A stretch of DNA of 64,000 nt from Euryhalocaulis caribicus (GTDB taxonomy: Bacteria; Pseudomonadota; Alphaproteobacteria; Caulobacterales; Maricaulaceae), in the NCBI RefSeq assembly GCF_000412185.1, contig NZ_ASJA01000012.1, positions 1 through 64,000 of the forward strand. Direction: 5' to 3'. Position numbers and translations under genes: made by a program. The notes under the pieces are model-generated. The model was not told the DNA's origin and searched no databases. It was given only the letters and a program-made list of their open reading frames with translations. Shown here piece after piece: positions 1 to 24,791 of this stretch (positions are counted from its first letter, which is position 1; every line of letters begins with the position of its first letter).

Positions 1-33
1 GGCTCTCAGAACAAAGCGCCTGCCTCCAACGCC

Positions 34-85: not shown

Positions 86-176
86 ACGAACGGAAAACCT
101 GATCAAACAAAACGGGAACCAAACCCGGCCCGGAGAGCTTCTCCAGCCACTCGATATTTCCAAGGGGGAAGCCGCC

Positions 177-494: not shown

Positions 495-507
495 GGGCGC
501 TTTTTTT
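465..507 (+). terminator. Rho-independent terminator of the small lipoprotein gene
   Basis: GCGCCC at 465-470 can pair with GGGCGC at 495-500, extended inside by GCC/GGC, and is followed at once by seven Ts (501-507). The stem includes the stop codon of the lipoprotein gene, so the transcript would end right behind translation. Confidence 0.6.
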
Positions 508-680
508 CGTTAGACCCTCTTGATCTGAACCGGGCTTGAGGTTGCAGGCTGCGCTTTCATTTCTTCTGATAGCGCCCGGAAACCTCATGACCCTCTTTCC
601 CCTCGCCGCCCTGAACGCCTTTCACCTGACAACCTTTTTGACTGACAGAACGGGGCGAAGCGGCTAGGGCTGCGCGTCTC

Positions 681-3065: not shown

Positions 3066-3164
3066 AGGCGCCGCCACATAGGCTCAAGCATCGTTCTGGA
3101 CAAGGCGGAAGGAAAGCCGCTATACAGGTTTATATTCCTATTCACGCCGGAAAGGCGGATCACA

Positions 3165-3797: not shown

Positions 3798-3806
3798 GGG
3801 AGCGTC

Positions 3807-4559
3807 TTACGGCTCGCCCAGCCAGTCACGGATCAGCGCCGCGCGCGCTTCATCCTCATCGAGAGCTTCGCGAAGCGCCCCGGCGCGCTGAACGGCCGCG
3901 TCGTCGAACGCTGTCTCCACCGGCTGCGCCAGCGTCCAGTCCAGCGTAGCCCTGGCGCGGTCGCGGTGGGCGGCCGGGTCCAGCGCCAGCAGCAAGGCGG
4001 CGTATTGCGCCCCGGCCATCGGCGCCGCGCCAAGCTGCAGCGCCGCTTCGAAATCAGCGATCCCGTCCGGGGCGTTCGCGCCGTAAAGGCGCTGCGCCGT
4101 CTCCCCGCCGCGCCACAGAATTTCCAGGTGCCAAGCGCCGGACACCGCCCGCGCCTGCGCGTTGTTCGGCTGCAGGGTCTGGGCGCGGTCCAGCGCCTCG
4201 CGGCCTCTGGCGGCGGAGCCGCGGAAATAATTGGCGATGTCGGAACTCGCCCGCGCCTCCAGCCCGTAGGAGACCGCCAGCTGGACCAGGGCGGACACGC
4301 TGTCCGGGTCCATCTCCAGCGCCGCCTCGGCATGACCGCGCGCGGTCCGCGCGGCGCGCGCATTCGCGCCCTCAAGGACCAGCCGCGTGCTGATCGCCTC
4401 GGCCGCCAGAACTTGCGCCTCGGCGCGTTCGATTTCGGCGGCCGTCTCCGCGGCGCGGACATAGTCGCCGCTGGCATAGGCCTGTCGCGCCGCGCCGATG
4501 TCCGCGAGGGCGGGGCCGGCGGCCGTGAGCGCCAGGAGGGCCGTTAGCAGGGTTCTCAT
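3807..4559 (-). CDS. Exported TPR-like protein of unknown function
   Basis: A 250-residue protein that starts with a cleavable signal peptide ([19 protein letters not shown]), so it is probably periplasmic. The rest is almost all helical and Ala-rich with degenerate tetratricopeptide-like repeats, for example around ARQAYASGDYVRAAETAAEI and AALEMDPDSVSALVQLA. Such proteins usually scaffold envelope complexes, but no partner is evident. I chose the start at 4559 because it places the signal peptide at the N terminus; an upstream in-frame start would add 14 residues with no signal character. It converges on the S24 regulator with 9 bases between stops. Confidence 0.75.
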   Translation of the reverse strand: MRTLLTALLALTAAGPALADIGAARQAYASGDYVRAAETAAEIERAEAQVLAAEAISTRLVLEGANARAARTARGHAEAALEMDPDSVSALVQLAVSYGLEARASSDIANYFRGSAARGREALDRAQTLQPNNAQARAVSGAWHLEILWRGGETAQRLYGANAPDGIADFEAALQLGAAPMAGAQYAALLLALDPAAHRDRARATLDWTLAQPVETAFDDAAVQRAGALREALDEDEARAALIRDWLGEP

Positions 4560-4624
4560 GAAGGGCAAGGGTAGCGCGCCCGCCGTCCCGCGCCAGCGCA
4601 CAGGGCAGGACAGAGCGGGCGGCG

Positions 4625-4858
4625 CTATGCCTTGGCGGCGGGCGCCTTGGGATACTGGAAGACCTCTTCCAGTCCCACGCCGAACGCCTCGGCCATCTGG
4701 AACGCCACTTCCAGCGAGGGCGAATAGCGGCCTTGTTCGATGGCGATGACGGTCTGGCGCGTGACGCCGACCTTGCGGGCCAGCTCGGCCTGGGTCATCT
4801 CGCCGGCCTCGAACCGCAGGCGGCGGATATTATTGGTGATGCGCGTTTTCTTCGCCAT
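4625..4858 (-). CDS. XRE-family HTH regulator (module 1)
   Basis: A 77-residue protein consisting almost only of a Cro/CI-type helix-turn-helix (MTQAELARKVGVTRQTVIAI at about 21-40, then EQGRYSPSLEVAFQMAEAFG). It is the last gene of a two-gene operon: its ATG overlaps the stop codon of the upstream membrane-protein gene (TGATG, 1 base), so translation is probably coupled. It resembles the 64-residue regulator at 8062-8256 in sequence (shared pattern TRQTV/SRQTV, RYSPSL/RYDPSL, EEVF/EEIF) and in context. A likely role is autoregulation of its own operon. Confidence 0.88.
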   Translation of the reverse strand: MAKKTRITNNIRRLRFEAGEMTQAELARKVGVTRQTVIAIEQGRYSPSLEVAFQMAEAFGVGLEEVFQYPKAPAAKA

Positions 4859-5277
4859 CAGATCGCCTGCCGGTAATAGACCAGCTTGGAGGCAAGGCTC
4901 ACCGCCTCGCTGACGAACAGGGCGAAGAGGAGGGCGTTGGCGGCGGCGAAATTCGTCGCGCCGACCAGCATCAGGCCCAGCGTCAGCACCACGCCGACGC
5001 CCAGGATGAAACCGCCATTGCGCTCGGCCTTCAGGCTGATGAAGCGTTCGCGCTCGTCGGTCTCGTCATCGCCCTTCTCCATGAAGATCGCCACGACGAT
5101 ATGGCCGGCCGCCACGATGGCGACAAAGCCGATCATGGTGACGAAAAGGATGGCGGTGGAGGCCGCCAGCACCCCCTCGCCGCTGAGGATCATCTCCGCG
5201 TGCAGCGCGAAATAGATCCCGTACCAGATAACCAGGCCGGCCAGCGTGATGGCGGCGGATTTTTCGTGAAAGCTCAT
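4858..5277 (-). CDS. Small four-helix membrane protein paired with XRE regulator (module 1)
   Basis: A 139-residue protein with four predicted transmembrane segments arranged as two hairpins (about 8-28, 38-65, 90-108 and 112-132). A charged cytoplasmic loop reads GDDETDERERFISLKAERNG. The DETDERE..I motif before a membrane hairpin is typical of small DUF2178-like membrane proteins that are encoded next to YozG-like XRE regulators; the family assignment is tentative. It is the first gene of the operon and carries the promoter region. A role in sensing a membrane signal or sequestering the downstream regulator is inference only. Confidence 0.8.
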   Translation of the reverse strand: MSFHEKSAAITLAGLVIWYGIYFALHAEMILSGEGVLAASTAILFVTMIGFVAIVAAGHIVVAIFMEKGDDETDERERFISLKAERNGGFILGVGVVLTLGLMLVGATNFAAANALLFALFVSEAVSLASKLVYYRQAI

Positions 5278-5284
5278 GTCAGGT

Positions 5285-5327
5285 CCTTCATACTAAAGGT
5301 CAAAGATTATTTACATCCCGATATGTA
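5285..5327 (-). promoter_or_regulatory. Candidate promoter/operator dyads of module 1
   Basis: Two inverted repeats lie just upstream of the module 1 operon: CCTTCATACTAAAGG at 5285-5299 (imperfect, outer arms CCTT/AAGG) and TACAT-N6-ATGTA at 5312-5327 (perfect 5-bp arms). The region is markedly AT-rich compared with its surroundings. They are plausible binding sites for the XRE regulator of this operon, but no consensus is known to me. Confidence 0.4.
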
Positions 5328-5368
5328 TGATCAGGCCGACTTCATGTCAATAATATTTTACTAAACTC

Positions 5369-5402
5369 GAAAAAGAAAAAGGGCGGCCCGTTGGGGCCGC
5401 CC
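5369..5402 (-). terminator. Rho-independent terminator downstream of the 88-residue gene
   Basis: GGGCGGCCC at 5381-5389 pairs perfectly with GGGCCGCCC at 5394-5402. Read on the minus strand the stem is followed by a T-rich tract (complement of 5369-5380), as expected for the minus-strand gene that ends at 5437. Confidence 0.85.
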
Positions 5403-5436
5403 CCGATCCTTCAAGCCGTTATTGTCCGGCGAACCG

Positions 5437-5703
5437 CTAGTGGTTCTTGAACAGGGCCGGGAAGTTCTGGCGGATGATGTCATCGCCGCCCGGCGCTTCG
5501 GAAAGCGCCCGCATGAACAGGGCGGTGTTGGAGGCAGCGCCGCGGAAATCGAAGGTGAATTCCTCGAACTTGCAGCCGTCCAGAACCGGCGGCTCGCCCC
5601 CGGAATAGGCCAGGGTCACGTTGCGGAACGTGCAGTTCTCGAACGTCTCCCCGTCCAGATCGACCGTGGCGTTTTCGAATGTCTCGTCTTTATGCGTGGC
5701 CAT
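5437..5703 (-). CDS. Small pentapeptide-like protein of unknown function
   Basis: An 88-residue soluble protein. The first half has a short run of pentapeptide-like units (FENATVDLDGETFENCTFRN), which would form a partial right-handed beta helix. The second half (about 45-88) is unlike the repeat and ends in PALFKNH. No catalytic motif is visible and I do not recognise a function. The ATG at 5703 is preceded by GGAG at about 12 bases and keeps the repeat near the N terminus; an in-frame start at 5772 would add a low-complexity leader without support. A strong terminator follows. Confidence 0.65.
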   Translation of the reverse strand: MATHKDETFENATVDLDGETFENCTFRNVTLAYSGGEPPVLDGCKFEEFTFDFRGAASNTALFMRALSEAPGGDDIIRQNFPALFKNH

Positions 5704-5789
5704 GTGCGCGGCAGCTCCGTTGGGAATTGAGGTTTCGTGAAAAGGGATAGCGGTTCGGTGGCGGGTTTCCAAATCCCATACGTTTCAAT

Positions 5790-5929
5790 CGTCATTCCGG
5801 ACGGAGCGTAGCGGAGATCCGGAACCTACCGAGGGGCGAACAACGCTTGGCGCACTTGTGAGTCGCCCAAGAGGCAAATTCACGGTGGGTAGGTTCCGGA
5901 TAATGGCCCTGCCATTTCCGGAATGACGG
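5790..5929. repeat. Palindromic repeat element, copy A (double REP)
   Basis: A 140-bp element bounded by the inverted repeat CGTCATTCCGG (5790-5800) and CCGGAATGACG (5919-5929). Inside, ATCCGGAACCTACC (5817-5830) pairs perfectly with GGTAGGTTCCGGAT (5888-5901). Each end can form its own REP-type hairpin (TTCCGGA...TCCGGAA), and a central piece reading TTGTGAGTC.CCCAAG.GGCAA is shared with copy B at 6291-6424 in the same orientation. The two copies frame the GIY-YIG gene. Confidence 0.85.
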
Positions 5930-5946
5930 GAAGCGGAGGCGTGCGT

Positions 5947-6255
5947 TCAGAAAGGCTGATTACGGAGGGCGTCTTCGTAAAGGTCTTTCCAGGTGGGGTT
6001 CATGCCTTCGATCAGGGCGACCTTCCACTCACGCTTCCATTTCTTCATTTGTTTTTCGCGGCCGATGGCGGCTTCGGCGCTGGCGTGCTGCTCGAACCAG
6101 ACGAGTTGCGTGATCTTGTATTTTCGGGTGTGGCCGGGGATTTCCAGAAGTCGGTGTTCCCAGACGCGTTTCACCAGATTGCTTGTAACGCCGAGATAGA
6201 TCGCGCCGCGCGGCCGGTTGGCGAGCAGATAAACCCAGAAGAGTTTTTCATGCAT
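5947..6255 (-). CDS. GIY-YIG nuclease-domain protein
   Basis: A 102-residue single-domain protein of the UvrC/endonuclease-like GIY-YIG superfamily. The two signature strands read VYLL (about 8-11) and IYLGVTSNLVKRVWEHR (about 19-35), with the conserved Arg and His in the helix. The acidic metal ligand is likely the Glu in GREKQMKKWKREWK or nearby. Bacterial standalone members are uncharacterised; they may cut DNA hairpins or flaps. The gene is tightly framed by two direct copies of a ~135-bp palindromic element: its stop is 18 bases from copy A and its start 36 bases from copy B. Confidence 0.9.
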   Translation of the reverse strand: MHEKLFWVYLLANRPRGAIYLGVTSNLVKRVWEHRLLEIPGHTRKYKITQLVWFEQHASAEAAIGREKQMKKWKREWKVALIEGMNPTWKDLYEDALRNQPF

Positions 6256-6290
6256 GGCATTGCCTGTGCTCGAGGGCCGATTTCCTCATC

Positions 6291-6424
6291 CGTCATTCCG
6301 GACGGAGCGAAGCGAAGATCCGGAACCTACCGCGCTTGAAACTACTGAAGGCTCATTTGTGAGTCACCCAAGGGGCAAGTTCGCCGCCGGTAGGGATAAT
6401 GGCTTTGCCATTTCCGGAATGACG
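6291..6424. repeat. Palindromic repeat element, copy B (double REP)
   Basis: A 134-bp element with the same outer inverted repeat as copy A (CGTCATTCCGG at 6291-6301, CCGGAATGACG at 6414-6424), the same direction, and the shared central TTTGTGAGTC.CCCAAG.GGCAA. The right inner arm has lost about six bases (GTAGGGATAATGG against GTAGGTTCCGGATAATGG in copy A), so its inner stem is broken while the outer stem is intact. Confidence 0.85.
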
Positions 6425-6434
6425 GACAGGGGCC

Positions 6435-8015
6435 TTACGAATCCCGCGAGAGGGCGCCTTCGATCATGGCGATGGTTTCGGGGAGGCCGTAGATGGCGGC
6501 GAAGCTGCCGAAGCGCGGGCCCTGGCTCTGGCCGAACAGGACCTCGTAGAGGGCCTGGAACCAGTCGCGCAGATTCTCGAACTCGTGCGCCTTGCCGATG
6601 GAATAGACCTCGGTCTGGATCGTTTCCGGATCGGACTCCGCCGATTCCAGCGCGCGGAAGCGGCGCACCAGCTCCTCCATCGCCGCGCGTTCCTGATCGG
6701 TCGGCGCGCGATACTGTTTCGCCGGGTGCACGAAGTCCCGGTAATAGGCCAGCGCATGGCCGACCAGCGCGTCGGTCAGGGGATAGGTCTCGGGCGTCGC
6801 ATCCGGCTGGTAGCGGGTGATGAAGCCCCAGATCGTCTCCTTGTCCGCCGCGCCGGCGGCGGAGACGAGGTTCAGCAATAGCGCGAAGCTGATCGGCGAG
6901 CCCTGTTCCGGCGGGTTCCCCTCATGGATATGCCAGGCCGGGTTCTCGACCTGCTTGTCCGGCTCCTGCCGCCCATAGGCGGAGAGGTGGGAGATATATT
7001 CGTCCACCGTCTTGGGAATGATGTCGAAATAGAGCTTCTTGGCCGTCTTGGGCTTGGTGAAGTTGAACAGCGACAGGCTCTCCGGCGGGCCGTAGGTCAG
7101 CCATTCCTCGACCGTCAGGCCGTTGCCCTTGGACTTGGAGATCTTCTCCCCCTTCTCGTCCAGGAACAGCTCGTAATTGAAGCCGTCGGGCGGCTTGCCG
7201 CCAAGGACGCGGCAGATTTTCGAGGAGACCTTCACGGACTCGATCAGGTCCTTGCCGGACATCTCGTAATCCACCCCCAGCGCGGCCCAGCGCAGCGCCC
7301 AGTCCGGCTTCCACTGGATTTTCACATGGCCGCCGGTGACCGGGACTTCGGTTTTTTCGCCGTCCTCGTCCTCGAACACGATCGTGCCGGAATCGACATT
7401 GCGCTCCAGCGTCGGGACCTGCAGCACCTTTCCCGATTTGGGCGAAACGGGGAGGAAGGGCGAATAGGTTTCCTGCCGCTCCCTGCCCAGCGTCGGTAGC
7501 ATGATCTCCATAACCTGGTCGAAGCGGGCGAGCATGGTCAGCAGCGCCTCGTCAAAGGCGCCGGACTTGTACTGCTCGGTCGAGGACAGGAATTCGTATT
7601 CGAACCCGAAAGCGTCGAGGAATTCGCGCAGGCGGGCATTATTGTGATGGGCGAAGCTCTCATGCTCGCCGAACGGGTCGGGGACCTTGGTCAGGGGCAG
7701 ACCGAGATGTTCGGCCAGCATGTCCTGGTTCGGGAGGTTGGTCGGGACTTTCCGGAACCCGTCCATGTCGTCCGAAAACGTGATCAGGCGCGTCTTGTAG
7801 GCGCCATCGGTCAGCGCCTCGAACGCGCGGCGCACCATGGTCGTGCGCACGACCTCGCCGAACGTGCCCATATGCGGCAGGCCGGACGGGCCGTATCCGG
7901 TCTCGAACACGACCGGTTTTTCCGTGCCGCGGGACTCGACGCGTTTGACGAGGGCGCGGGCCTGTTCGAAGGGCCAGGCCTTGGCGGAGCGGGCAATATC
8001 GGAAAGGTCAGTCAT
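6435..8015 (-). CDS. lysK: Lysyl-tRNA synthetase, class I (archaeal type)
   Basis: A 526-residue class I LysRS that charges tRNA-Lys with lysine; this form occurs in archaea, alphaproteobacteria and spirochaetes in place of the common class II enzyme. Class I signatures are clear: the HIGH-like motif PHMG (47-50) in GYGPSGLPHMGTFGEV and the KMSKS-like KISKS (291-295). The helical anticodon-binding C terminus follows. I chose ATG 8015 because the N terminus then reads as in the family; the longer open frame upstream overlaps an XRE gene. Repeat copy B lies 10 bases downstream of the stop. Confidence 0.96.
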   Translation of the reverse strand: MTDLSDIARSAKAWPFEQARALVKRVESRGTEKPVVFETGYGPSGLPHMGTFGEVVRTTMVRRAFEALTDGAYKTRLITFSDDMDGFRKVPTNLPNQDMLAEHLGLPLTKVPDPFGEHESFAHHNNARLREFLDAFGFEYEFLSSTEQYKSGAFDEALLTMLARFDQVMEIMLPTLGRERQETYSPFLPVSPKSGKVLQVPTLERNVDSGTIVFEDEDGEKTEVPVTGGHVKIQWKPDWALRWAALGVDYEMSGKDLIESVKVSSKICRVLGGKPPDGFNYELFLDEKGEKISKSKGNGLTVEEWLTYGPPESLSLFNFTKPKTAKKLYFDIIPKTVDEYISHLSAYGRQEPDKQVENPAWHIHEGNPPEQGSPISFALLLNLVSAAGAADKETIWGFITRYQPDATPETYPLTDALVGHALAYYRDFVHPAKQYRAPTDQERAAMEELVRRFRALESAESDPETIQTEVYSIGKAHEFENLRDWFQALYEVLFGQSQGPRFGSFAAIYGLPETIAMIEGALSRDS

Positions 8016-8061
8016 GGGAAGGCGTTGTAACGCGCCGCGATGGCGAGGCAAGCGGGCGGAC

Positions 8062-8256
8062 TCACGCCTCGTCGTCGAAGATCTCCTCGATCGGGCGGCC
8101 GAACAGCCGGGCGATGCGGAAGGCGAGCGGCAGGGAGGGGTCGTAACGCCCCGCCTCCAGCGCATTCACGGTCTGGCGGGAGACGTCGAGCTTTTCGGCC
8201 AGCGCGCCTTGCGTCCAGCCCATTTCGGCGCGGAGTTGGCGCAGGATGTTCTTCAT
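8062..8256 (-). CDS. XRE-family HTH regulator (module 2)
   Basis: A 64-residue protein made of a single Cro/CI-type helix-turn-helix (MGWTQGALAEKLDVSRQTVN at about 12-31, then EAGRYDPSLPLAFRIARLFG). It is the last gene of a three-gene operon and overlaps the preceding membrane-protein gene by four bases (ATGA), so the two are translationally coupled. It is the second copy in this window of the arrangement membrane protein(s) followed by a tiny XRE regulator. It is a good candidate for binding the inverted repeat in the promoter at 8917-8973. Confidence 0.9.
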   Translation of the reverse strand: MKNILRQLRAEMGWTQGALAEKLDVSRQTVNALEAGRYDPSLPLAFRIARLFGRPIEEIFDDEA

Positions 8257-8657
8257 CCGCCATACCGCCGGTTGAGCACCGCCATGGCCGCCGTGTGAGT
8301 GAGCGCGGCGGCGGGCAGCAGCAGGAAGAGCGGGGGCTCCGGCCAGCCCATGATGAAGCTGAAGATGCCCCAGAGCGAGGCCGCGAAGACCACGCCGCCG
8401 GCGCTGATCATGATGGCGCGGAACTGGATCTCCCGCTGCATCTCGTCGCCGCCGCGCGTCATGCGCACGAACTCATACCCCCACCAGGCCATCGGCAGGA
8501 CAGGCAGGGCGGCCAGCGCCAGCCGGACGCCCTGCTGCGAGACAGACGAGAACAGCAGGATGGAGGGCACCAGGACGGCGACATAGAGCAGAAGCGCCAG
8601 CGTGCCTGTCCGGCGAAAGCGTTTCAGGCGCGACTGGCTGGGCGCGGTCCCGCTCAT
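8253..8657 (-). CDS. Four-helix membrane protein of module 2
   Basis: A 134-residue protein with four predicted transmembrane helices (about 22-42, 46-62, 80-100 and 104-124). Between helices 2 and 3 lies a cytoplasmic charged loop, TRGGDEMQREIQFRAI, that parallels the DETDERERFISLKA loop of the module 1 membrane protein. This shared loop suggests a common, possibly signal-transmitting part. Its start (ATG 8657) overlaps the stop of the 82-residue gene by four bases, and its stop overlaps the XRE start. The function is unknown. Confidence 0.8.
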   Translation of the reverse strand: MSGTAPSQSRLKRFRRTGTLALLLYVAVLVPSILLFSSVSQQGVRLALAALPVLPMAWWGYEFVRMTRGGDEMQREIQFRAIMISAGGVVFAASLWGIFSFIMGWPEPPLFLLLPAAALTHTAAMAVLNRRYGG

Positions 8658-8902
8658 GCCGCGCCGCGCCCGCACAGCGCGCGCCAGATGCGGGCGCGGT
8701 TGGAAAATGCGGTCCAGCCGAGCACCACCCCGCCGACCCAGAACACCGCCTCGGTCGATACCGCAGCGATGGTGACCAGCACGGTCCACAGCGCGACGCC
8801 CGGGTCCATGAACAGCCAGACGCCCAGCATGGTCAGCCAGGTGGTCGTGCAGACGCCCAGCGCGATGGCGAGAAGCAGCAGCTTGAGCGATTTCGAAGTC
8901 AT
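8654..8902 (-). CDS. Small membrane protein, first gene of module 2
   Basis: An 82-residue protein with two predicted transmembrane segments (about 7-31 and 38-62) and a short basic C terminus (NRARIWRALCGRGAA). I recognise no family. It opens the three-gene operon that ends in the XRE regulator; every junction is an ATGA overlap, so the three proteins are probably made in fixed ratio. The start is supported by GGAGATCGCC shortly upstream of the ATG. Confidence 0.7.
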   Translation of the reverse strand: MTSKSLKLLLLAIALGVCTTTWLTMLGVWLFMDPGVALWTVLVTIAAVSTEAVFWVGGVVLGWTAFSNRARIWRALCGRGAA

Positions 8903-8916
8903 GGCGATCTCCTGAT

Positions 8917-8973
8917 TGGAAAGTGTGCTTTACAAGTATGCGCCGCCGCCCAGCCTGTCAAGCACGCTTTCCA
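8917..8973 (-). promoter_or_regulatory. Promoter of module 2 with a 14-bp inverted-repeat operator
   Basis: Two arms, TGGAAAGTGTGCTT (8917-8930) and AAGCACGCTTTCCA (8960-8973), are inverted copies matching at 13 of 14 positions, 29 bases apart. On the minus strand the upstream arm overlaps a consensus -35 (TTGACA); 17 bases later lies TACTTG or a close -10 variant, partly covered by the second arm. This looks like an operator that would block the promoter, most simply for the XRE regulator of the operon. Confidence 0.65.
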
Positions 8974-9043
8974 TTTTGTGCGCAAAAAGAGCCGGGCTGC
9001 GTCTGGCCGATAGCCAGCCATGGCAAGGCGCGGCGGGCGGCGT

Positions 9044-9850
9044 CTATCTGAAGAAACGTAGCGCGGCCGAGATAATGGCTTCAGGCGCATCTTCCTGCAC
9101 CAGATGGCCGGCGCCGGGGATTTCCGTCAGTTCGCAATCGGGCAGCATGGCCGATAATTCGCGGCCGCGGGCAAGGGGTATCCATTCGTCATCACAGCCC
9201 CACAGGAGCGTGACGGGAAAGCGCAACTCCCCGTACTGGTCCTGAACAGCATCGGTGTATTTCAGATCCATCTGGGCGATCTGGCGGTAGAAGCCGGGTT
9301 GGCCGGATTCGCCCAGCCAGGGCGTCAGATAAGGCTCGAGTTCGGCATCGCTCATCGGGCGCGAAGCCGCGCCGCGGATATAGGCGCGCAGGATGGCGCG
9401 CTGCAGGTAATCCGGGACCCCGGCGAAGGCGGCTTCATGCTCGCGCACATGCTGCACGAAAGGCGAACCCCAGGGACGGATGGCGACCGGGTCGATCAGC
9501 AGCAGCCTTTCGTAGTCCAGCCGGTTGAGAAAGTGCGCGCGCAGCGCGGTCGCGCCACCGAAGTCATGCGCCATGACCTGCGGCTTCACCAGGCCCCAAT
9601 GTTCGAACAGCGCGGCCAGCACCTCATTCTGGACGCCAAGGGAGACGTCGGCGTCGGGTTTGGCGGACAGGCCGTAACCCAGCAGATCGTAGAGATAGAC
9701 CGTATGATCGCGCGCCAGCTCCGGCGCGATCCTGCGCCAGACGTGAGATGAGAATGGCGTCCCGTGCAGGAGGACAAGCGCGGGACCATCGCCAAGACGG
9801 TCCCACGCAATGTCATGGCCCTTGAATTGAAAGCGCTTTTCGAGCCGCAC
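9044..9850 (-). CDS. Alpha/beta hydrolase with Asp nucleophile (haloalkane dehalogenase-like)
   Basis: A 268-residue alpha/beta-hydrolase-fold protein. The oxyanion region is LLHGTPFSSHVW (about 28-39), and the nucleophile elbow reads MAHDFGGATA with aspartate in the nucleophile position instead of serine, as in haloalkane and fluoroacetate dehalogenases and epoxide hydrolases. The catalytic histidine is in GAGHLVQEDAPE near the C terminus. It is the third gene of the betaine-synthesis operon, 11 bases after the second methyltransferase, so a link to methylamine or SAM metabolism is possible but unproven. The start is a GTG at 9850. Confidence 0.85.
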   Translation of the reverse strand: MRLEKRFQFKGHDIAWDRLGDGPALVLLHGTPFSSHVWRRIAPELARDHTVYLYDLLGYGLSAKPDADVSLGVQNEVLAALFEHWGLVKPQVMAHDFGGATALRAHFLNRLDYERLLLIDPVAIRPWGSPFVQHVREHEAAFAGVPDYLQRAILRAYIRGAASRPMSDAELEPYLTPWLGESGQPGFYRQIAQMDLKYTDAVQDQYGELRFPVTLLWGCDDEWIPLARGRELSAMLPDCELTEIPGAGHLVQEDAPEAIISAALRFFR

Positions 9851-9861
9851 GCGAGGACGGC

Positions 9862-10695
9862 CTATTCCGGCTTGCGGAAGTGGAGGATGCCCCAGTTCAG
9901 CTTGCCCGTGGCCGCGCCGTCGACCCAGTGGCCGAGGCCCTCGATCATGTTGTCGATATATTCGGTGGAGACCGTTTTCTCGATATTCTCGCGGTCCTTG
10001 ATCAACTCCTCCCGGACGCGGCCATAATGGCGGCCCAGCTGGTCGGGATATTCGCGAACATCGACCTCTACCAGGCCCGCCTTCTTCGCCGCTTCGCGGT
10101 AGAAGGCGACCGAGGCCAGAGAGGAGAGGCGGATGCGGTTGAGGATCGGCTGCAGTTCGCCGTCATCGGCATCGTCGGCCTTCATCGGGTCGGTGAAGAT
10201 GATATCGCCGCCCGGTTTCACGATGCGGGCGCATTCTTCAATGATGCCTTGGCGGTCGCCGCCGTGCAGGAAGCTGTCCTGTGACCACATGGCGTCAAAG
10301 GCGCCGTCCTCGGCGGGGACTTCGTTGAACGAGCCGTGGATCACCTCGATCTCGTCATGGAAGCCGGCCTTGGCGTTCAGCTGGCGGTTAATCTCGTTCT
10401 GCTTGTCCGCGATATTGACGCAGGTCACTTTCCAGTCGCGATTGCGCACCATCCAGCGAGCCCCGCCGCCATAGCCGGCGCCGAGATCCACCACGTGCGC
10501 GCCCTTGGGCAGGTCCAGCATGTCGGCGATGGTCTCCACCGTGCGGATGCTGGCGTCCCGGATCGCCTCGTCCTCGGACTTGTAGAGGCCGACATGGATA
10601 TCCTCGCCGCCCCAGACATCCAGATAGAAGCGGACGGCGTCGTCGCTGTCGTAATAGTCCTCCGCGACGGCGGAGGCCTGTTTATGATTTTCCAT
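9862..10695 (-). CDS. Sarcosine/dimethylglycine N-methyltransferase
   Basis: A 277-residue class I SAM-dependent methyltransferase that catalyses the later methylations of glycine to betaine (sarcosine to dimethylglycine to glycine betaine). Motif I is VVDLGAGYGGGARWMV (about 67-82), followed by WSQDSFLHGGD and the post-motif FTDPMKADD characteristic of SDMT-type enzymes. With the preceding glycine/sarcosine methyltransferase it would give de novo synthesis of the compatible solute glycine betaine, a trait of halophiles. ATG 10695 overlaps the preceding gene by 14 bases; a TTG at 10716 is the alternative start. Confidence 0.92.
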   Translation of the reverse strand: MENHKQASAVAEDYYDSDDAVRFYLDVWGGEDIHVGLYKSEDEAIRDASIRTVETIADMLDLPKGAHVVDLGAGYGGGARWMVRNRDWKVTCVNIADKQNEINRQLNAKAGFHDEIEVIHGSFNEVPAEDGAFDAMWSQDSFLHGGDRQGIIEECARIVKPGGDIIFTDPMKADDADDGELQPILNRIRLSSLASVAFYREAAKKAGLVEVDVREYPDQLGRHYGRVREELIKDRENIEKTVSTEYIDNMIEGLGHWVDGAATGKLNWGILHFRKPE

Positions 10696-11509
10696 GATCA
10701 AATTTCTTTTGCGCAACGTGAATGAAGAAATCGGGGTTATCGACCGGCTTGTCGTTGAAATCGCCGTAGGTCTCGATGTTCTGGAAACCCGCCTCGGTCA
10801 TCAGGCCCTCGACATAGTTCCGGCGCAGCGGAAACATGTTCAGGTGATAGGTCTGCCCGTCTGAAAATTCGTAGCAGAAACGCGCCAGGCCATCGTCGAC
10901 CTTCTCGGGAAAGACATTGACGTCCTTGCCGGTATAGACCGAGTGCTTGGAGCCGTAATTGCCGTCCAGGATCGCATCGTAATTGCGGTGATCCATGATC
11001 AGCACGCCGTCATGTTTCAGCGCGGCGTAGAATTCGGCCAGGGCGCGGCGGCGGTCGGCCTCTTCATGCAGGTGGGTGAAGGAATTCCCCAGACAGATGA
11101 CCGCGTCATACTTGCCCTGGATATCCTTGTTCAGCCAGCGCCAGTCGCTGCACACCGTCTTGAGGATCTGGTCGTGCTCGACGCCGTTGTCGAAGGCCAT
11201 GGCCAGCATCTGGGCGCTGCCGTCGCAACTGGTGACGTCCAGCCCCGCCTTCTTCAGGCGGATGGAGTGGAAACCGGTGCCGGTGGCGACGTCCAGAATC
11301 TTGTGCTTGCCGTATTTTTTCAGGACGTCGACGAAGAACTGGCCTTCGCTTTTCGCGCGGCCTTCCCAGTCGATCAGCTCGTCCCATTTCTCGACGAACC
11401 CGCGGATATATTCGTTCTGGTAGTGATTGGTGTCGCGGACCTTCAGAGGGTCGCTGCCGTAATCCTGTTTGTTTGTGTCGCGACTTTTCAAGTCAGCTGA
11501 CGTTGACAT
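10682..11509 (-). CDS. Glycine/sarcosine N-methyltransferase
   Basis: A 275-residue class I SAM-dependent methyltransferase for the first two steps of betaine synthesis from glycine. Motif I is ILDVATGTGFHSIRL (about 71-85), and the sequence includes the GSMT-type features CLGNSFTHL and MDHRNYD. It is the first gene of a three-gene operon with the second methyltransferase and an Asp-nucleophile hydrolase. Its product S-adenosylhomocysteine inhibits the enzyme in characterised relatives. A ~310-base region with several hairpins separates it from the peroxiredoxin gene and may control expression. Confidence 0.93.
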   Translation of the reverse strand: MSTSADLKSRDTNKQDYGSDPLKVRDTNHYQNEYIRGFVEKWDELIDWEGRAKSEGQFFVDVLKKYGKHKILDVATGTGFHSIRLKKAGLDVTSCDGSAQMLAMAFDNGVEHDQILKTVCSDWRWLNKDIQGKYDAVICLGNSFTHLHEEADRRRALAEFYAALKHDGVLIMDHRNYDAILDGNYGSKHSVYTGKDVNVFPEKVDDGLARFCYEFSDGQTYHLNMFPLRRNYVEGLMTEAGFQNIETYGDFNDKPVDNPDFFIHVAQKKFDHGKS

Positions 11510-17163: not shown

Positions 17164-18129
17164 TCAGGCGGCCCTGGCGTCGGCCTTGTTCTCGAGGAAC
17201 CATTCATAGGCGTTGGCCAGGCCCTCTTCGAGGCCGATGGAGGGCGCCCAGCCCAGGCCGCGAATCTTGTCGGCGCTCATCAGCTTGCGGGGCGTGCCGT
17301 CCGGCTTGGTCTCGTCCTTGGTCAGGTCGCCTTTGAAGCCGACGACTTTCATGACCTGACGGGCCAGTTCCTCAATCGTTACGTCCGTGCCGCTGCCCAC
17401 GTTCACGTGCTGGTCTTGCGAATAGGTCTTCATCAGGAAGACCAGCGCATCGGCGCAGTCATCGACATGCAGGAATTCGCGGCGCGGCGACCCCGTGCCC
17501 CAGATTTCCATGGAGGACTGCCCGGCGAGCTTGGCCTCGTGCGCCTTGCGGATCAGGGCCGGAATGACGTGCGAGTTCTGCAGGTCGTAATTGTCGCGCG
17601 GGCCGTAGAGATTGGTCGGCATGGCGGAGATGAAGTCGTCGCCATATTGCCGGCGATAGGCCTGGCAGAGTTTCAGCCCGGCGATCTTGGCGACCGCGTA
17701 CCACTCGTTCGTCGGCTCCAGCGCGCCGGTCAGCAGGGCGTCCTCGGTGATCGGCTGGTCGGCGAATTTCGGATAGATGCAGGAGGAGCCGAGGAAGACC
17801 AGCTTCTCCACGCCCACATTATGGGCGGCGTGGATGACATTGCCGGCGATCATCAGGTTCTCGTACAGGAACTCCGCCGGATAGGTGTCGTTGGCGAGGA
17901 TCCCGCCCACCTTGGCCGCGGGCACGAAGACCGCGTCCGGCTTTTCCGCCTTCATCCAGCGTTCGACCTCGTCCTGACGGACCAGGTCCGCGTCGGCGCG
18001 CGTGGCGGTCAGCAGCGCGCCGATATTTTCCCGCTCCAGCCGCCGGCAAAGCGCCGAGCCGACCATGCCGCGATGGCCGGCCACCCAGACGCGCTTGCCT
18101 TCAAGACTGTATGCGGGGGCGTCAGCCAT
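17164..18129 (-). CDS. fcl: GDP-L-fucose synthase
   Basis: A 321-residue short-chain dehydrogenase/epimerase that converts GDP-4-keto-6-deoxymannose to GDP-L-fucose with NADPH. The nucleotide-binding motif is [12 protein letters not shown] (about 15-26), the catalytic serine lies in GSSCIYP, and the YxxxK pair in [21 protein letters not shown] and [10 protein letters not shown] are typical of the family. It follows gmd with an 8-base overlap, so the two steps from GDP-mannose to GDP-fucose form one unit for surface glycan synthesis. Confidence 0.96.
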
Positions 18130-19192
18130 GGCGGTTTTTCCGGTCTTTCTCGCGCAGAACGGTTTTCAGATCGTCTTCCACCATCTCGGTTACAAGGTCG
18201 CGGAAGCTGGTCGTCGGCGTCCAGCCCAGCTTTTCCTTGGCCTTGGCCGGATCGGACAGCAGCAGGTCCACCTCGGTCGGGCGGAAATAGCGCGGGTCGA
18301 TCCGGACCAGCGTCTCGCCGCTGTCGGAGTCATAGCCGACTTCGTCCACGCCTTCGTCTTTCCAGGCGATGGTCTTGCCAACCTCGGCGAAGGCCAGTTC
18401 GACGAATTCGCGCACGCTATGCGTCTCGCCCGTGCCCAGAACGAAATCGTCCGGTTCGTCCTGCTGCACGATGCGCCACATGCCTTCGACATAGTCGCGG
18501 GCATGGCCCCAGTCGCGCTTGGCGTCCAGATTGCCCAGGAACAGCGTGTCCTGCAGGCCGTGTTTGATGGCCGCGACGGCGCGCGTGATCTTGCGCGTCA
18601 CGAAGGTCTCGCCGCGCAGCGGGCTTTCATGGTTGAACAGGATGCCATTGGAGGCGTGATAGCCGTAGGCCTCGCGGTAATTGACCGTCACCCAGTAGGC
18701 ATAGGCTTTCGCGGCCGCATACGGGCTGCGCGGATAGAAGGGCGTGGTCTCGGTCTGCGGCGTTTCCACGACCTTGCCGTAAAGCTCCGACGTCGAGGCC
18801 TGATAGAAGCGCGTCTTCTCGCCAAGGCCCAGGATGCGGATCGCCTCCAGCATGCGCAACGCGCCGATGGCGTCGGAGTTCGCGGTGTATTCCGGCGTCT
18901 CGAAGCTGACCTGAACGTGGCTCTGCGCGCCCAGATTATAGATCTCGTCCGGCTGGCTCTCCTGAACCAGGCGGATCAGGTTCGTGGAATCGGTCAGGTC
19001 GCCATAATGCAGAAACATCCGCACATCTTTTTCATGCGGGTCCTGATACAAATCGTCGATCCGTTCGGTATTGAACGAGGACGAGCGGCGCTTCACGCCG
19101 TGAACGATATAACCCTTGTCCAGAAGCAGCCGGGCCAGATACGCGCCGTCCTGGCCCGTAATCCCGGTAATCAACGCCGTCTTGCGATCCAT
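18122..19192 (-). CDS. gmd: GDP-mannose 4,6-dehydratase
   Basis: A 356-residue extended SDR enzyme that makes GDP-4-keto-6-deoxymannose from GDP-mannose. Visible motifs are the NADP site [14 protein letters not shown] (about 9-22), the signature [24 protein letters not shown] with the catalytic Thr/Ser-Glu, and YxxxK as [10 protein letters not shown]. Length and start match the family. It is the first gene of the gmd-fcl pair; the upstream 335 bases carry strong RNA hairpins and the divergent ABC exporter gene. Confidence 0.97.
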
Positions 19193-19527: not shown

Positions 19528-20349
19528 ATGACCGCCGCGTCGCCTGACATGGGTGTCCGCACGTCCCGCTGGGCCGAGGCCTGGCGCGACCTGACGCAGA
19601 GCCTGCGCCTGACGCCGTTCTGGATGCGGCTGGCCTATCAGCGCGTGCGCGGCCGCTACCAGCGCCTGTCGCTGGGCCTGATCTGGCACCCGCTATCCTA
19701 CGCCTTCGTGGTGATTTCGCTGGGCTATATGTGGGCGGCGATCATGGGGCGCGAGGCGTCCTATTTCATGCCCTATGTGGCCGTGGGCTTCGCGACCTGG
19801 TTTTTCATCTCCAACGCGATCAGCGGCGCGACGGATATTTTCAACGGCGCGCGGCGGCACATCATGGCGCGGCCGACGCCCCTGATGATGTTCATTTTCG
19901 AACGCACGGCGGCGAACCTCATGGCCTTCTTCCTGGAAGCGCCGCTGTTTTTTCTCGTGGCGCTGCTGGTGGGGCGCGATTTCGGCTGGATCGTTCTGCT
20001 GGCGCTGCCGGGCCTGGGCCTGCTGATTCTCAACGCGATCTGGGCGAACCTGTTTTTCGCCATCGCGGTCGCGCGTTTTCCCGACCTTGGAGAGATGGTG
20101 CGCAACATCATGCGCATCGCCTTCTTCTTCACCCCGATCATCTGGTCGGTGGACGTCAATCCGCGGGTGGAGAACGTCTCCCAGTGGAACCCGTTCTATC
20201 ACGCGGTGGAGGTGGTCCGCGCGCCGTTCATGGGCGCCCCGCCGGACCGCATCAGCTATATCGTCGTTTCGGCCATTGCGGCGGTCGGCCTGACCCTGAC
20301 GATTCCGATGTTCGTCTATGCGCGCCGCCGCGTGCCTTACTGGGTCTGA
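19528..20349 (+). CDS. ABC transporter permease, polysaccharide exporter (Wzm/KpsM type)
   Basis: A 273-residue ABC-2-type permease with six predicted transmembrane helices, similar to Wzm, KpsM and TagG proteins that export O-antigen, capsule or teichoic acid chains. Typical elements are LAYQRVRGRYQRLSLGLIWHPL near the N terminus and FFFTPIIWSVD ... WNPFYHAVEVVRAPFMG in the second half. It forms the membrane channel with the ATPase encoded 7 bases downstream. ATG 19528 gives a normal length; a longer open frame upstream lacks support. It diverges from gmd and fcl. Confidence 0.92.
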   Translation: MTAASPDMGVRTSRWAEAWRDLTQSLRLTPFWMRLAYQRVRGRYQRLSLGLIWHPLSYAFVVISLGYMWAAIMGREASYFMPYVAVGFATWFFISNAISGATDIFNGARRHIMARPTPLMMFIFERTAANLMAFFLEAPLFFLVALLVGRDFGWIVLLALPGLGLLILNAIWANLFFAIAVARFPDLGEMVRNIMRIAFFFTPIIWSVDVNPRVENVSQWNPFYHAVEVVRAPFMGAPPDRISYIVVSAIAAVGLTLTIPMFVYARRRVPYWV

Positions 20350-20356
20350 TCGTCTG

Positions 20357-21877
20357 ATGGCCCGTCTGGTTCTTGAAAACGTCGTCATGGAGTATCCGCC
20401 CCTGCGGCGCAGCTTCGTGCGCTCCCTGGCCGACGCCACGCGCAAGCGCGCGCCCATGACGTTCGCCCTGAACAACGTAAATCTCACCCTTGAGGACGGC
20501 GACCGCGTGGCTCTTCTGGGCCCCAATGGCGCGGGCAAGACCACGCTGCTTTCGGTCATGGCCGGCATCTATCCGCCGCTGCGCGGCCGGGTGACGATCG
20601 AGGGGACGATGGAGACGCTGTTTTCCATCTCCGCCGGCGTCGACCGCGAGCTTCCGGGGCACGCCAATATCAATCTCCATCTCCGCCGCCTCGGCGTCAC
20701 GGGCAAGGAGGCGAAGGAAGCGCGCGCCTATATCGCCGAACTCAGCGAGCTGGGCGGGAAGCTGGACAGCCCGGTTCACACCTATTCCGCCGGGATGAGC
20801 ATGCGTCTGGCCTTCGCGATGGCCATGGCGACCGATCCGGAAATCCTGCTGATCGACGAATATTTCGGGGCGGGCGACCGGGCCTTTCAGGAAAAGGCGC
20901 GCGCGGCGATGCTGGAAAAGGTGGAGCATTCCCGCATCGTGGTCTTCGCCTCTCACAATCCGCGCCTGCTGGAGAGCATCTGCAACAAGGCGCTGATCAT
21001 GAACGCCGGGCAGGTGCAGGATTACGGCGATTTCGAACCGGTCATCGCCCGCTATCTGGAATCGCTGCGGGAAGACCCGAAAGTCTCCCGCAAGGACATG
21101 ATGGAAACCGCCGGCGCGGCCGAGCCGCCGTCCCTGATCCTCACGCCTTCGCGGCGCGCGGCCAGCCTTAAATCGCAAGCGTCCGGCGATACGCCGTCCT
21201 GCGCGGCGATCTCGGCCGCCGGCGAAAGCGGCGCGGCGTTTTTCTCCGCGTTGGGGGAGCTGGCCCGCAGCGCGGACATGACCCTGATTGATATTCCCGC
21301 CATGTTCGCCGAACAGGGCGTCAAACCGGCCGCGCGCGTGACCTCCCTGCGGGAGGATGCGCCGGCAACCGGCGCGCTTCTCACCGGGATGCGTGGTTGG
21401 CCGGCTTTCGGATCCAGCGTGCTGGCGACGGGTAAGGTCGCTGTCTTGATCCGCGATCCGCGCGAGCTGGCGGCCGAGTTCTGGCTGATGGAAAGCGGAC
21501 TGGCCGAGGGCGGGCTGGACCGCGCGCTAGCGGAACTGGACGACCAGAAACCCTCGCGCCTGCCCGCCGCCATCGCCGCGGCGCGCGGGCTTTATGAAAC
21601 GCTCGCGGCGGGCGGGGCGTATTCCCGCCCCGGCATCGCCCTGTTTTCGGCGGAGGCCGCCTGGGCCGACCCGGAGGGCGCGATCCGGGCCATTGCCGGC
21701 CATCTGGGACTGGCGGCGGACGATCAGGCCATGAAGGCCGCCGCGGCGGCCTTTGCCCCGCCGGCCCTGCGCTCCCCCATGTCGGCGCTGCGCGCGAACG
21801 AACAGGGACAGATTCGCATGGCGCTGAACCGCATCGCGCGGGAGCTGGGCTACCACACGCCGGAGCCGGCCAGGTGA
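20357..21877 (+). CDS. Polysaccharide ABC exporter ATPase fused to a sulfotransferase-like domain
   Basis: A 506-residue two-part protein. Residues 1-245 are a Wzt/KpsT-type ATPase: Walker A GPNGAGKTT (55-63), signature YSAGM (143-147) and Walker B ILLIDEYFGAGD (163-174). After a linker, residues 280-506 align by eye with the two sulfotransferase-like proteins encoded next: ISAAGESGAAFFSAL matches their KAGS segment, VAVLIRDPRELAAEFWLMES matches their 3'-phosphate motif RDPRDILTSLYFS, and the ends also match. The 5'-phosphosulfate-binding lysine is lost, so this domain is probably a non-catalytic binding part, in the position where Wzt proteins carry a glycan-recognition domain. Confidence 0.9.
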   Translation: MARLVLENVVMEYPPLRRSFVRSLADATRKRAPMTFALNNVNLTLEDGDRVALLGPNGAGKTTLLSVMAGIYPPLRGRVTIEGTMETLFSISAGVDRELPGHANINLHLRRLGVTGKEAKEARAYIAELSELGGKLDSPVHTYSAGMSMRLAFAMAMATDPEILLIDEYFGAGDRAFQEKARAAMLEKVEHSRIVVFASHNPRLLESICNKALIMNAGQVQDYGDFEPVIARYLESLREDPKVSRKDMMETAGAAEPPSLILTPSRRAASLKSQASGDTPSCAAISAAGESGAAFFSALGELARSADMTLIDIPAMFAEQGVKPAARVTSLREDAPATGALLTGMRGWPAFGSSVLATGKVAVLIRDPRELAAEFWLMESGLAEGGLDRALAELDDQKPSRLPAAIAAARGLYETLAAGGAYSRPGIALFSAEAAWADPEGAIRAIAGHLGLAADDQAMKAAAAAFAPPALRSPMSALRANEQGQIRMALNRIARELGYHTPEPAR

Positions 21878-22710
21878 CGATCCTCGTCACCGCAAGCGCG
21901 TCTCCCGCCTCCGCCGGCGAATATGACGATACGATCCAGGTCGACCCGTCCGCGCGCTGGGCGGGGCCGAGCGCCTATCTCTTCTCCCTGCACAAGGCGG
22001 GCAGCAGCCTGCTGAACGGCATGGTGGAAATGCTGTGCGAGGCGAACGGCGCGGCGTTCATCCCCGTGCCGAACCTCCTGCGCCGGGCCGGGCACAACCC
22101 CAATCGCGACGTTGTCATGGATGACAGCGCCTTCGCCGCGACGGGCGTTGTCTATGGCGGTTTCCGTCTGCTGCCGGACTATAAGCTGCCCGGCCTTGAG
22201 GAGGCACCGAAAATCCTGCTGCTTCGCGATCCGCGCGATATCCTGACATCGCTTTATTTCTCGGTCGCCAGCAGCCATGTCGCGCCGGGCGAAGGGGCGC
22301 TGAAACAGGCGTTCGAGCGTAACCGCGAATATGTGAAGGCCGCGCCGATCAACCGGATCGTGAAAGAACGCGCGCCGAACCTGAAAACCCAGATAGAGCG
22401 TTATCTGGAAAAACTGCCGCGCCGGGGGCTGGCGGTCTATCACTATGAAGACGTGGTTCTGAACAAGGCGGCATGGATTGCGGACCTTGCCGATGTGCTG
22501 GGGCTGGACGCGGATGAGGAAACGGCGCGGGCGATTCTGGACCGCTTCGACATTGTTCCGGACAGTGAAGCGCCGGACAGTCATGTGCGCCGCGTCCTGC
22601 CGGGCGATCACCGGGACAAGCTGGGTCCAAAGACCATAGACATGCTGGACGCGCTGTTCACAGGCATTTATGACCCGCTACTTTCGGCGCGGCGGGAAAT
22701 CCCGTCATGA
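21874..22710 (+). CDS. Sulfotransferase-family protein 1
   Basis: A 278-residue cytoplasmic protein of the sulfotransferase P-loop-like fold. The 5'-phosphosulfate loop reads SLHKAGSSLLNGM (about 35-47), and the 3'-phosphate site is LLLRDPRDILTSLYFS (about 117-132). Such enzymes move sulfate from PAPS to sugars or other acceptors; with the exporter and glycosyltransferases around it, glycan sulfation is likely. The GTG start at 21874 overlaps the stop of the ATPase fusion (GTGA), so translation is coupled. It is a paralogue of the next gene and of the C-terminal domain of the ATPase. Confidence 0.85.
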   Translation: MTILVTASASPASAGEYDDTIQVDPSARWAGPSAYLFSLHKAGSSLLNGMVEMLCEANGAAFIPVPNLLRRAGHNPNRDVVMDDSAFAATGVVYGGFRLLPDYKLPGLEEAPKILLLRDPRDILTSLYFSVASSHVAPGEGALKQAFERNREYVKAAPINRIVKERAPNLKTQIERYLEKLPRRGLAVYHYEDVVLNKAAWIADLADVLGLDADEETARAILDRFDIVPDSEAPDSHVRRVLPGDHRDKLGPKTIDMLDALFTGIYDPLLSARREIPS

Positions 22711-22749
22711 CGGCACACGGATAGATGGCGGAAGAATAACAAGATCAAG

Positions 22750-23559
22750 ATGACCCTGTCCTTCAAGCTCAAGTCCGGCGAAAAGCCCCCGGTCGACCTT
22801 CCCGAAACCGAATCCGAGGCGCAAAGCGTTCTGGCTTTCTCCATGGCCAAGGCCGGCAGCACCTTGCTGTTCGACCTCCTGCACGATCTCGCGCCCGCCG
22901 CGGGGCTGGCCTATTTCTCGCCGGAAAACGCGGTCTGGGGCCGCAAGGACCGCAAGGCGGGCAAGGTCTATGACATGTCGCCGGTTTTCCGCGACAAGGG
23001 CTATTGCTATGGCGGATTCCGCTTCTACCCGGCCTATGACGTGCCGGTCATCGAAACCGCGCCGTCCATCCTTCTGGTCCGCGACCCGAAGGACATGCTG
23101 GTCTCCAATTATTTCTCCAACGCCTTCTCTCACCGCCCGCCCACCGATGACGAGGAGTCTCCCGCCTATCAGCAGTTCATGAAGCGGCGGGAGCGTATCC
23201 GGAACACCGACATCAACGACTATGTCCGCCAGATCGTGGGCAACACCCAGCGCATGTTCGCCAGCTACCGCGCCCTGCTGCACAAGCCGACGCTGAAGAT
23301 TTTCCGCTATGAGGACGTGATCGAGCAGAAGCGCCCTTGGGTGGACGAGATTCTGGAGCATTTCGGCTGGGCCGTGCCGGGTGAAACGGTGGACGAGATC
23401 ATCGCCCGCTACGACCTGTTTCCGGACGCCGAAAAACCGGACGCGCATGTGCGGCAGGTGAAGCCGGGCAATTATCGCGAGCATTTGAACAAGCAGACGG
23501 TCACGGCGATCAACGCCGCCCTCGCTGAGGATCTGGCCGTTCTCGGCTATACCCGCTGA
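22750..23559 (+). CDS. Sulfotransferase-family protein 2
   Basis: A 269-residue paralogue of the preceding protein. The PAPS-binding elements are SMAKAGSTLLFDLL (about 33-46) and ILLVRDPKDMLVSNYFS (about 113-129); a GGFRFYPAYD segment between them is shared with the neighbour (GGFRLLPDYK). Its stop codon shares a base with the start of the following glycosyltransferase, which ties sulfation and sugar transfer into one translation unit. The acceptor is unknown. A 39-base gap separates it from sulfotransferase 1. Confidence 0.85.
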   Translation: MTLSFKLKSGEKPPVDLPETESEAQSVLAFSMAKAGSTLLFDLLHDLAPAAGLAYFSPENAVWGRKDRKAGKVYDMSPVFRDKGYCYGGFRFYPAYDVPVIETAPSILLVRDPKDMLVSNYFSNAFSHRPPTDDEESPAYQQFMKRRERIRNTDINDYVRQIVGNTQRMFASYRALLHKPTLKIFRYEDVIEQKRPWVDEILEHFGWAVPGETVDEIIARYDLFPDAEKPDAHVRQVKPGNYREHLNKQTVTAINAALAEDLAVLGYTR

Positions 23560-24791
23560 TGTCCGCCCCGCGCCGCCGCGCCAGACGTCCCGGCCGCTCC
23601 ATAGGCGCGGTGCGCGGCATGCGGCAGGAGGTGCGCCGCAAGGACGTGAAGACGCTGGACCGGGCGCAGCTTGAAGACCTGCTGCGCAAGGAAATCCTCC
23701 GCCGCAAGGATGCGGAGAAGAATCTGGTTGAAGCTTGGCGGCTGGCCTCCGACCGCGAAGACCATATCCGGGCGCTCACAAACACTCTGGAAATTCTGCG
23801 CGCAAACCCCGTCAAACGCCTCGGCTGGGCGATCGCGCGCCGCACGGGCGGGTCGCTGAAACGGCAATTGCGCCATCGCGCCAATCAGGCGCTGCTTCGC
23901 GTCTTCAAGGTCGGGCTGAACGACTATAATCATTATGAGCCGCGGCCCATGCAGCTTCCGGCCGCCTATGCGAAGACGCGGCCGCCGGAAGACCCGCCGA
24001 AAATCTCCATCGTGACCCCGTCCTACAACTCGGCGAACTTCATCGCCGCGACGATCCATTCGGTGCTCGATCAGGAATATCCGAACCTGGAATATATCTG
24101 TCAGGACGGCGCCTCGAAGGACGGCACGGCGAGGATCATCAAGAGCTACGAGGACCGCCTGCATCACTGGGCCAGCGAGCGCGACAGCGGCTTCACCCAG
24201 GCGATCAATCGCGGTTTTTCGCACGCCACCGGCGATATTCTGGCCTGGCTGAACTCCGACGATCTGATGCTGCCCGGCAGTCTCGCCTATGTGGCGCGCT
24301 ATTTCGCGGCGCATCCGGAGGTGGATGTCGTCTATGGCCACCGCATCATCATCGACGAATGGGACCGCGAGATTGGCCGCTGGATCGTGCCGCCGCATTC
24401 CGACAAGGCGATCAAATACGCCGACTATATCCCGCAGGAGACGATGTTCTGGCGCCGCAGCCTCTGGGAGAAAGTCGGCGGCGAACTGGACGAAGCGTTC
24501 AACTTCGCCATCGACTGGGACCTGATCCTGCGCTTTCAGGCGGCCGGGGCGAAATTCCACCGCCTGCCGCGTTTTCTGGGGGCGTTCCGCGCCCATCAGG
24601 CGCAAAAGTCCCAGGCGGCGATCACCTCGGTCGGCCATGGAGAAATGGACATCCTGCGCGAACGCGCGCTGGGCTACGCGCCCGACCACGCGGAAATCGC
24701 CAAAGTGGTCCGCCAGTACAAGCTGCACCACGCCGTTCTGAGCATGCGCGCCCGCGCGCGCAGCCGCGCAGGCCGCCGAAAGGCCCGCTGA
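23559..24791 (+). CDS. Glycosyltransferase, family 2, with N-terminal coiled coil
   Basis: A 410-residue GT2 enzyme. Residues 1-100 are basic and helical, with a likely coiled coil (EDLLRKEILRRKDAEKNLVEAWRLASD). The GT-A domain starts near 147 (KISIVTPSYNSANFIAATIH) and shows the nucleotide-binding ICQDGASKDGT and the metal-binding WLNSDDLM. A later QETMFWRR and FAIDWDL are typical of WcaA-like transferases. No transmembrane helices are seen. It is the last gene of the exporter-sulfotransferase operon and probably extends or decorates the exported glycan. Confidence 0.9.
   Translation: MSAPRRRARRPGRSIGAVRGMRQEVRRKDVKTLDRAQLEDLLRKEILRRKDAEKNLVEAWRLASDREDHIRALTNTLEILRANPVKRLGWAIARRTGGSLKRQLRHRANQALLRVFKVGLNDYNHYEPRPMQLPAAYAKTRPPEDPPKISIVTPSYNSANFIAATIHSVLDQEYPNLEYICQDGASKDGTARIIKSYEDRLHHWASERDSGFTQAINRGFSHATGDILAWLNSDDLMLPGSLAYVARYFAAHPEVDVVYGHRIIIDEWDREIGRWIVPPHSDKAIKYADYIPQETMFWRRSLWEKVGGELDEAFNFAIDWDLILRFQAAGAKFHRLPRFLGAFRAHQAQKSQAAITSVGHGEMDILRERALGYAPDHAEIAKVVRQYKLHHAVLSMRARARSRAGRRKAR

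Follow-up and report, generated by a model that had tools for sequence, protein, structure and literature searches.

The window analyzed, by which we mean the whole stretch of 64,000 nucleotides of Euryhalocaulis caribicus DNA, contains a compact operon of five nearly touching or overlapping genes, with two genes of nucleotide-sugar synthesis as divergent neighbors. The features, in positions of the window, are the following:

17164..18129, minus strand: GDP-L-fucose synthase (fcl), divergent neighbor (PF01370, 3.3e-63)
18122..19192, minus strand: GDP-mannose 4,6-dehydratase (gmd), divergent neighbor (PF16363, 2.8e-158)
19528-24791, plus strand: the operon, in the order Wzm, Wzt, ST1, ST2, family 2 glycosyltransferase
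19528..20349, plus strand: Wzm-type ABC exporter permease, 273 aa (NCBIfam NF050109 galactan_ABC_perm, 3.3e-54, below the curated cut-off)
20357..21877, plus strand: Wzt-type ATPase with an appended pseudo-sulfotransferase tail, 506 aa, one open frame
20357..21070, plus strand: ATPase (nucleotide-binding) domain of the Wzt, residues 1-238 (Walker A GPNGAGKT, signature YSAGM, Walker B LLIDE, H-loop ASHN)
21071..21193, plus strand: linker, about residues 239-279, placed by the end point of the nearest homologs
21194..21859, plus strand: pseudo-sulfotransferase domain, residues 280-501 (about 222 residues), delimited by hhalign, HMM, AlphaFold2, and Foldseek
21452..21463, plus strand: kept RDPR motif, residues 366-369, nearly invariant in the family alignment
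21874..22710, plus strand: intact sulfotransferase ST1, 278 aa (PF00685, 6e-8)
22750..23559, plus strand: intact sulfotransferase ST2, 269 aa (PF00685, 1.7e-9)
23559..24791, plus strand: family 2 glycosyltransferase of the same operon, 410 aa (PF00535, 9e-30)

Only 7 bases separate the end of the Wzm gene from the start of the Wzt ATPase, and the Wzt stop overlaps the GTG start of ST1 in the sequence GTGA; export and sulfation genes stand together in this single operon. The gmd and fcl genes, the latter name being presumptive for the PF01370 protein, constitute a GDP-fucose pathway transcribed divergently from the exporter operon. ST1 and ST2, which are 36% identical, had been described as intact paralogs, and so they proved: both match PF00685 above the Pfam cut-off and conserve the Lys, the RDPR/K..S motif, the His, and the PGD/N segment of the active type, with ST1 retaining K, S, RDPR..SLYFS, H, and PGDH in the family alignment. 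The genome contains an APS kinase for the supply of PAPS, and the Wzt at 20357-21877 is the sole Wzt of its kind there. A third sulfotransferase paralog (ST3) lies on another contig (C1:278960; L063:9762-10691) in a neighborhood without exporter genes, and is the best pairwise match of the Wzt tail. The operon glycosyltransferase, for its part, has about 145 residues preceding its GT2 domain, which segment includes a charged, coiled-coil-looking stretch.

The N-terminal half of the Wzt comprises a complete ABC ATPase (PF00005, 2e-21, residues 38-168), which the ABC motifs, the similarity to exporter ATPases, and the adjoining Wzm permease identify as that of a polysaccharide exporter. The best NCBIfam match was the galactan Wzt NF050108 (4.5e-56, below its curated 400-bit cut-off), and the relatives of the domain in the PDB were RfbE (8e-45) and TarH (3e-44), along with TagH and Wzt. 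The closest sequences, at 41-49% identity, are short ATPases of exporters, about 250 residues in length, together with the galactan/RfbE and TagH group; these nearest homologs stop at about residue 240-250—the present Wzt running about 256 residues further—and the closest relatives in the ATPase clade are without any such C-terminal domain. Because those relatives are short, the tail would most simply have been appended to a short, CBM-less exporter ATPase. Where the exported glycan is capped, Wzt has its C-terminal domain at the cytoplasmic entrance, and the modified end of the chain is bound there; such a recognition domain is a feature of the capped-glycan class only (PMC9445017). The statement of the earlier note that this position of Wzt proteins holds a glycan-recognition domain consequently applies to that class, but not to the nearest relatives of the present ATPase, which have none.

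The tail had no significant Pfam match of its own, and the Wzt_C jelly-roll (PF14524) gave no match after the ATPase, even at an E of 1. By descent, the tail is derived from a sulfotransferase: BLASTP aligned it with ST1 (1e-6, 223 columns), with ST2 (1e-5, 91 columns), and with ST3 (2e-8); the HMM-HMM comparison by hhalign with six sulfotransferases gave a probability of 96% and an E of 3e-9 over 221 columns; and on a profile HMM of 85 family members from public genomes, from which the tail was left out, it scored 29.4 bits, the top of 2000 shuffles being 2.7. The alignability with both following sulfotransferases noticed earlier by eye is thereby corroborated. The source of the tail lies within the local sulfotransferase family; from which paralog it came the tree cannot say, since a branch as long as that of the tail (3.51 versus a family median of 0.48, or about seven times faster) is subject to long-branch attraction.

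An AlphaFold2 model of the tail from an alignment of 29 relatives (pLDDT 83.9, pTM 0.83) displayed an alternating alpha/beta order, and the Foldseek matches in the PDB at E <=0.001 were sulfotransferases, the best being mSULT2A8 (2.2e-5), with TM values of about 0.35-0.53; the beta-sandwich on whose appearance the earlier proposal would have fallen was not seen. A single-sequence run gave a pLDDT of 38.6 and agreed with the former model in the secondary-structure order alone, so that the confident model, in requiring the family alignment, speaks for fold compatibility and is not an independent proof. The predictions thus support a tail whose structure fits the sulfotransferase fold and not a beta-sandwich.

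The active site, by contrast with that of ST1 and ST2, has been lost. The near-invariant positions replaced in the tail (tail numbering) are K27G, S30G, S112E, S116M, Y170A, W180A, H215A, and P221Q; the His after the SxYFS stretch is absent and the closing PGDH segment is gone, whereas R104-D105-P106-R107, E171, R217, and G222 are kept. Among the elements of an active PAPS sulfotransferase, the Lys, the Ser/Thr, the 3'-phosphate Ser, the His, and the RxxxPGD are missing, while the RDPR arginine, R217, and G222 stay. Extrapolating from what is known of the SULT enzymes, we assign K27 and S30 to the former PAPS loop, and the 3'-phosphate site to R104, S112, and R217, in which circumstance two arginines of a former anion site may remain, which persistence is a hint only. 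Catalysis by the tail seems very unlikely on this pattern of residues, and the enzyme is very probably dead. The earlier note had asserted as much, and its loss of the PAPS lysine recurs in the family alignment as a K-to-G replacement; of the RDPR..SxYFS motif that it had aligned, the RDPR stood, but both serines are replaced (E, M), and the closing segment that it had also considered alignable has lost its PGDH.

The tail was found in no other genome searched. It was absent from 299 genomes of the order and from 137 genomes of the family (that of Maricaulis); patterns of the tail had no match in genome_contigs, plasmids had no tail match, and viral_contigs contained no sulfotransferase relative; tail-only searches are sensitive to close relatives only. 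Further Wzt proteins with long tails, taken from the order and class, were considered as candidate fusions and rejected: their tails are Wzt_C-like or of other kinds, and none scores on the sulfotransferase profile. In the literature searched, no description of a Wzt-sulfotransferase fusion was found; in A. salmonicida, a separate gene with a sulfotransferase domain adjoins wzt (PMC4483657).

Sulfotransferases of the family nevertheless recur with Wzm and Wzt, often accompanied by gmd and fcl, in distantly related genomes, at loci L079, L081, L082, L087, L105, L119, L122, L123, and L125, and the hosts that bear the module are Alphaproteobacteria, a zetaproteobacterium, Sedimenticola, and a lentisphaerian. 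At L123 (Maricaulis salignorans, 3127-10714), the divergent fcl-gmd and Wzm-Wzt layout is similar to that of E. caribicus: Wzm and Wzt are followed by two other genes and then a distant sulfotransferase, and the C-terminus of the Wzt is a Wzt_C jelly-roll (7e-11). Two alphaproteobacterial genomes furthermore possess the mirror image of the present fusion, an intact sulfotransferase with a C-terminal Wzt_C-like domain (L087:5668-6993 and L233:9711-11036, both on the plus strand; 2.3e-5 and 4.9e-6, respectively, both slightly under the Pfam cut-off), which gene adjoins fcl and a Wzt with a clear Wzt_C. As in E. caribicus, the modules of sulfation and export share domains there within fcl-Wzm-Wzt loci, although in the opposite arrangement, the intact enzyme being the bearer of the glycan-binding-type domain. 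Since sulfotransferases and exporters thus exchange modules, a coupling role is plausible.

With the jelly-roll Wzt proteins (Wzt_C; E. coli O9a, Raoultella, and the Aquifex WzmWzt), the E. caribicus protein has in common an ABC-2 exporter ATPase with an extra C-terminal domain, a Wzm, and chain-modifying enzymes in the locus; but its tail has a predicted sulfotransferase fold, its ATPase is nearest the short class, and its operon is without a capping kinase or a methyltransferase with a coiled coil. The short CBM-less ATPases (KpsT, the N-terminal part of TagH, RfbE/galactan Wzt) are alike in the ATPase domain, but end at about 250 residues. With the PAPS-dependent sulfotransferases (PF00685; ST1, ST2, and ST3), the tail has in common the fold and an alignment of about 220 columns, though not the lysine, the serines, the His, the PGDH segment, or a significant Pfam match. 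A further likeness, drawn from description and not from sequence, is to the E. coli K5 protein KfiB, which carries a putative sulfotransferase annotation (PMC13171606) but is characterized as an accessory protein of capsule assembly and export with a reported interaction with KpsM/KpsT (PMC12834895); KfiB is a separate protein unfused to KpsT, the tail being fused to the Wzt. KfiB serves as a precedent for a non-catalytic partner of an exporter.

We tentatively propose, as the likeliest reading though one that we hold at a little under even, that the tail is a non-catalytic adaptor through which sulfation and export are coupled, having originated from a fused and inactivated paralog of ST1 and ST2. 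A sulfotransferase gene of that kind would have been fused in frame to the end of the short CBM-less Wzt and would then have lost catalysis; the tail could now sit on the cytoplasmic face of the exporter and keep the acceptor glycan, the active ST1 and ST2, or both close to the Wzm entrance, a dead tail being able to retain either a site that binds the acceptor or a face that dimerizes with ST1/ST2. Sulfation and export of what is probably a fucose-containing chain would then occur together. The fusion points to a physical connection of chain sulfation with export, although it is no proof of one.

Against this adaptor must be weighed, as a rather unlikely though substantial alternative, a sulfotransferase fused through the loss of a stop, inactive, drifting, and tolerated because it does no harm to the ATPase. 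The very long branch, the raised second-position GC, an alanine content of 24% as against 9-12% in the paralogs, the lack of tail relatives in genomes of the order and family, the disappearance of the catalytic residues, and the existence of short ATPases that do without a tail all agree with such a history; and the extreme divergence and alanine enrichment would also be expected of a weakly constrained passenger domain. However, the 244 codons of the tail carry neither stop nor frameshift, despite an identity of about 20% to the relatives, and the synonymous codon score of 0.379 lies between those of ST1 (0.318) and ST2 (0.423), with the other frames of the same strand far off; the gene-like usage thus indicates that the tail is coding. 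In addition, the tail has 48 consensus identities where the shuffle maximum was 41, fills 95% of the buried positions with a hydrophobic residue or Ala where that maximum was 89%, and gives a confident fold with the family alignment. We did not accept the retention of the hydrophobic core (p 3e-17) as proof of selection, since shuffled tails that were identically aligned reproduce most of the effect, and the core pattern exceeds such alignment-biased shuffles only in part. The same gene-like codons, which continue through the linker, make it very improbable that an assembly or sequencing error joined a short Wzt to a separate sulfotransferase-like gene starting near the pair of ATG codons at 248-249: the ATPase of the relatives does end at about residue 240-250, and there is one assembly only, but the join is in frame without an intergenic gap, the assembly is rated as 100% complete with 0.28% contamination, and a separate product would likewise be a dead sulfotransferase. 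Still more remote is an enzyme, sulfotransferase or other transferase, with a rebuilt active site: the compatible fold and the kept RDPR, E171, and R217 would allow it, but the tail retains none of the PAPS lysine, the phosphate-loop serine, the His after the SxYFS stretch, and the PGDH segment.

The earlier note had gone further than an adaptor in regarding the tail as a putative checkpoint reader, which would bind the completed chain at its sulfated end and license its export; the jelly-roll CBM plays that part for chains with methyl, phosphate, or Kdo caps. The tail does occupy the position of the CBM in a capped-glycan Wzt (PMC9445017), which position in the similar Maricaulis locus holds a jelly-roll; the two arginines from the presumed PAPS phosphate site (RDPR and R217) could bind an anion; and the sulfotransferase-Wzt_C fusions at L087 and L233 exist as a parallel. 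Nevertheless, the ATPase belongs to the class without a recognition domain, the RDPR may persist for structural reasons, and the site of a sulfotransferase is suited to the unsulfated acceptor, so that we consider such a reader decidedly unlikely. We favor an adaptor over a strict reader on two grounds: the unsulfated acceptor is what the fold is made to bind, and ATPases of this class are not known to require an export license. Binding of the acceptor or of a partner would be a more natural remnant of a dead sulfotransferase than binding of the sulfated product, and the broader claim of coupling by an adaptor is better supported than the reading of a sulfated chain end. It is a doubtful proposition that, on this polysaccharide ABC exporter, a pseudo-sulfotransferase took over the glycan-reader role of the jelly-roll and so created an undescribed kind of checkpoint between sulfation and export. 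In the known systems, the tail of the exporter reads a cap made by another enzyme, whereas the exporter of E. caribicus has incorporated what was once an enzyme of the modifying pathway, which arrangement, if functional, would represent a second, independent way of linking modification to export; and through the sulfotransferase-Wzt_C fusions, module exchange between sulfotransferases and exporters can be tested on further genomes.

Two minor observations concern other proteins of the loci compared. Directly after the Wzt of L087, a 742-aa protein (28-2253, minus strand) carries a Sulfotransfer_3 domain at its N-terminus and, toward the C-terminus, a part resembling a coiled coil (CC2-LZ, below the cut-off); it has the look of a chain terminator that sulfates and bears a molecular ruler. 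At L097:6928-8745 and L098:1178-3010, two proteins of about 606 residues, 77% identical, have a C-terminal sulfotransferase, preceded by an N-terminal half that, with no Pfam match, appears glycosyltransferase-like by eye.
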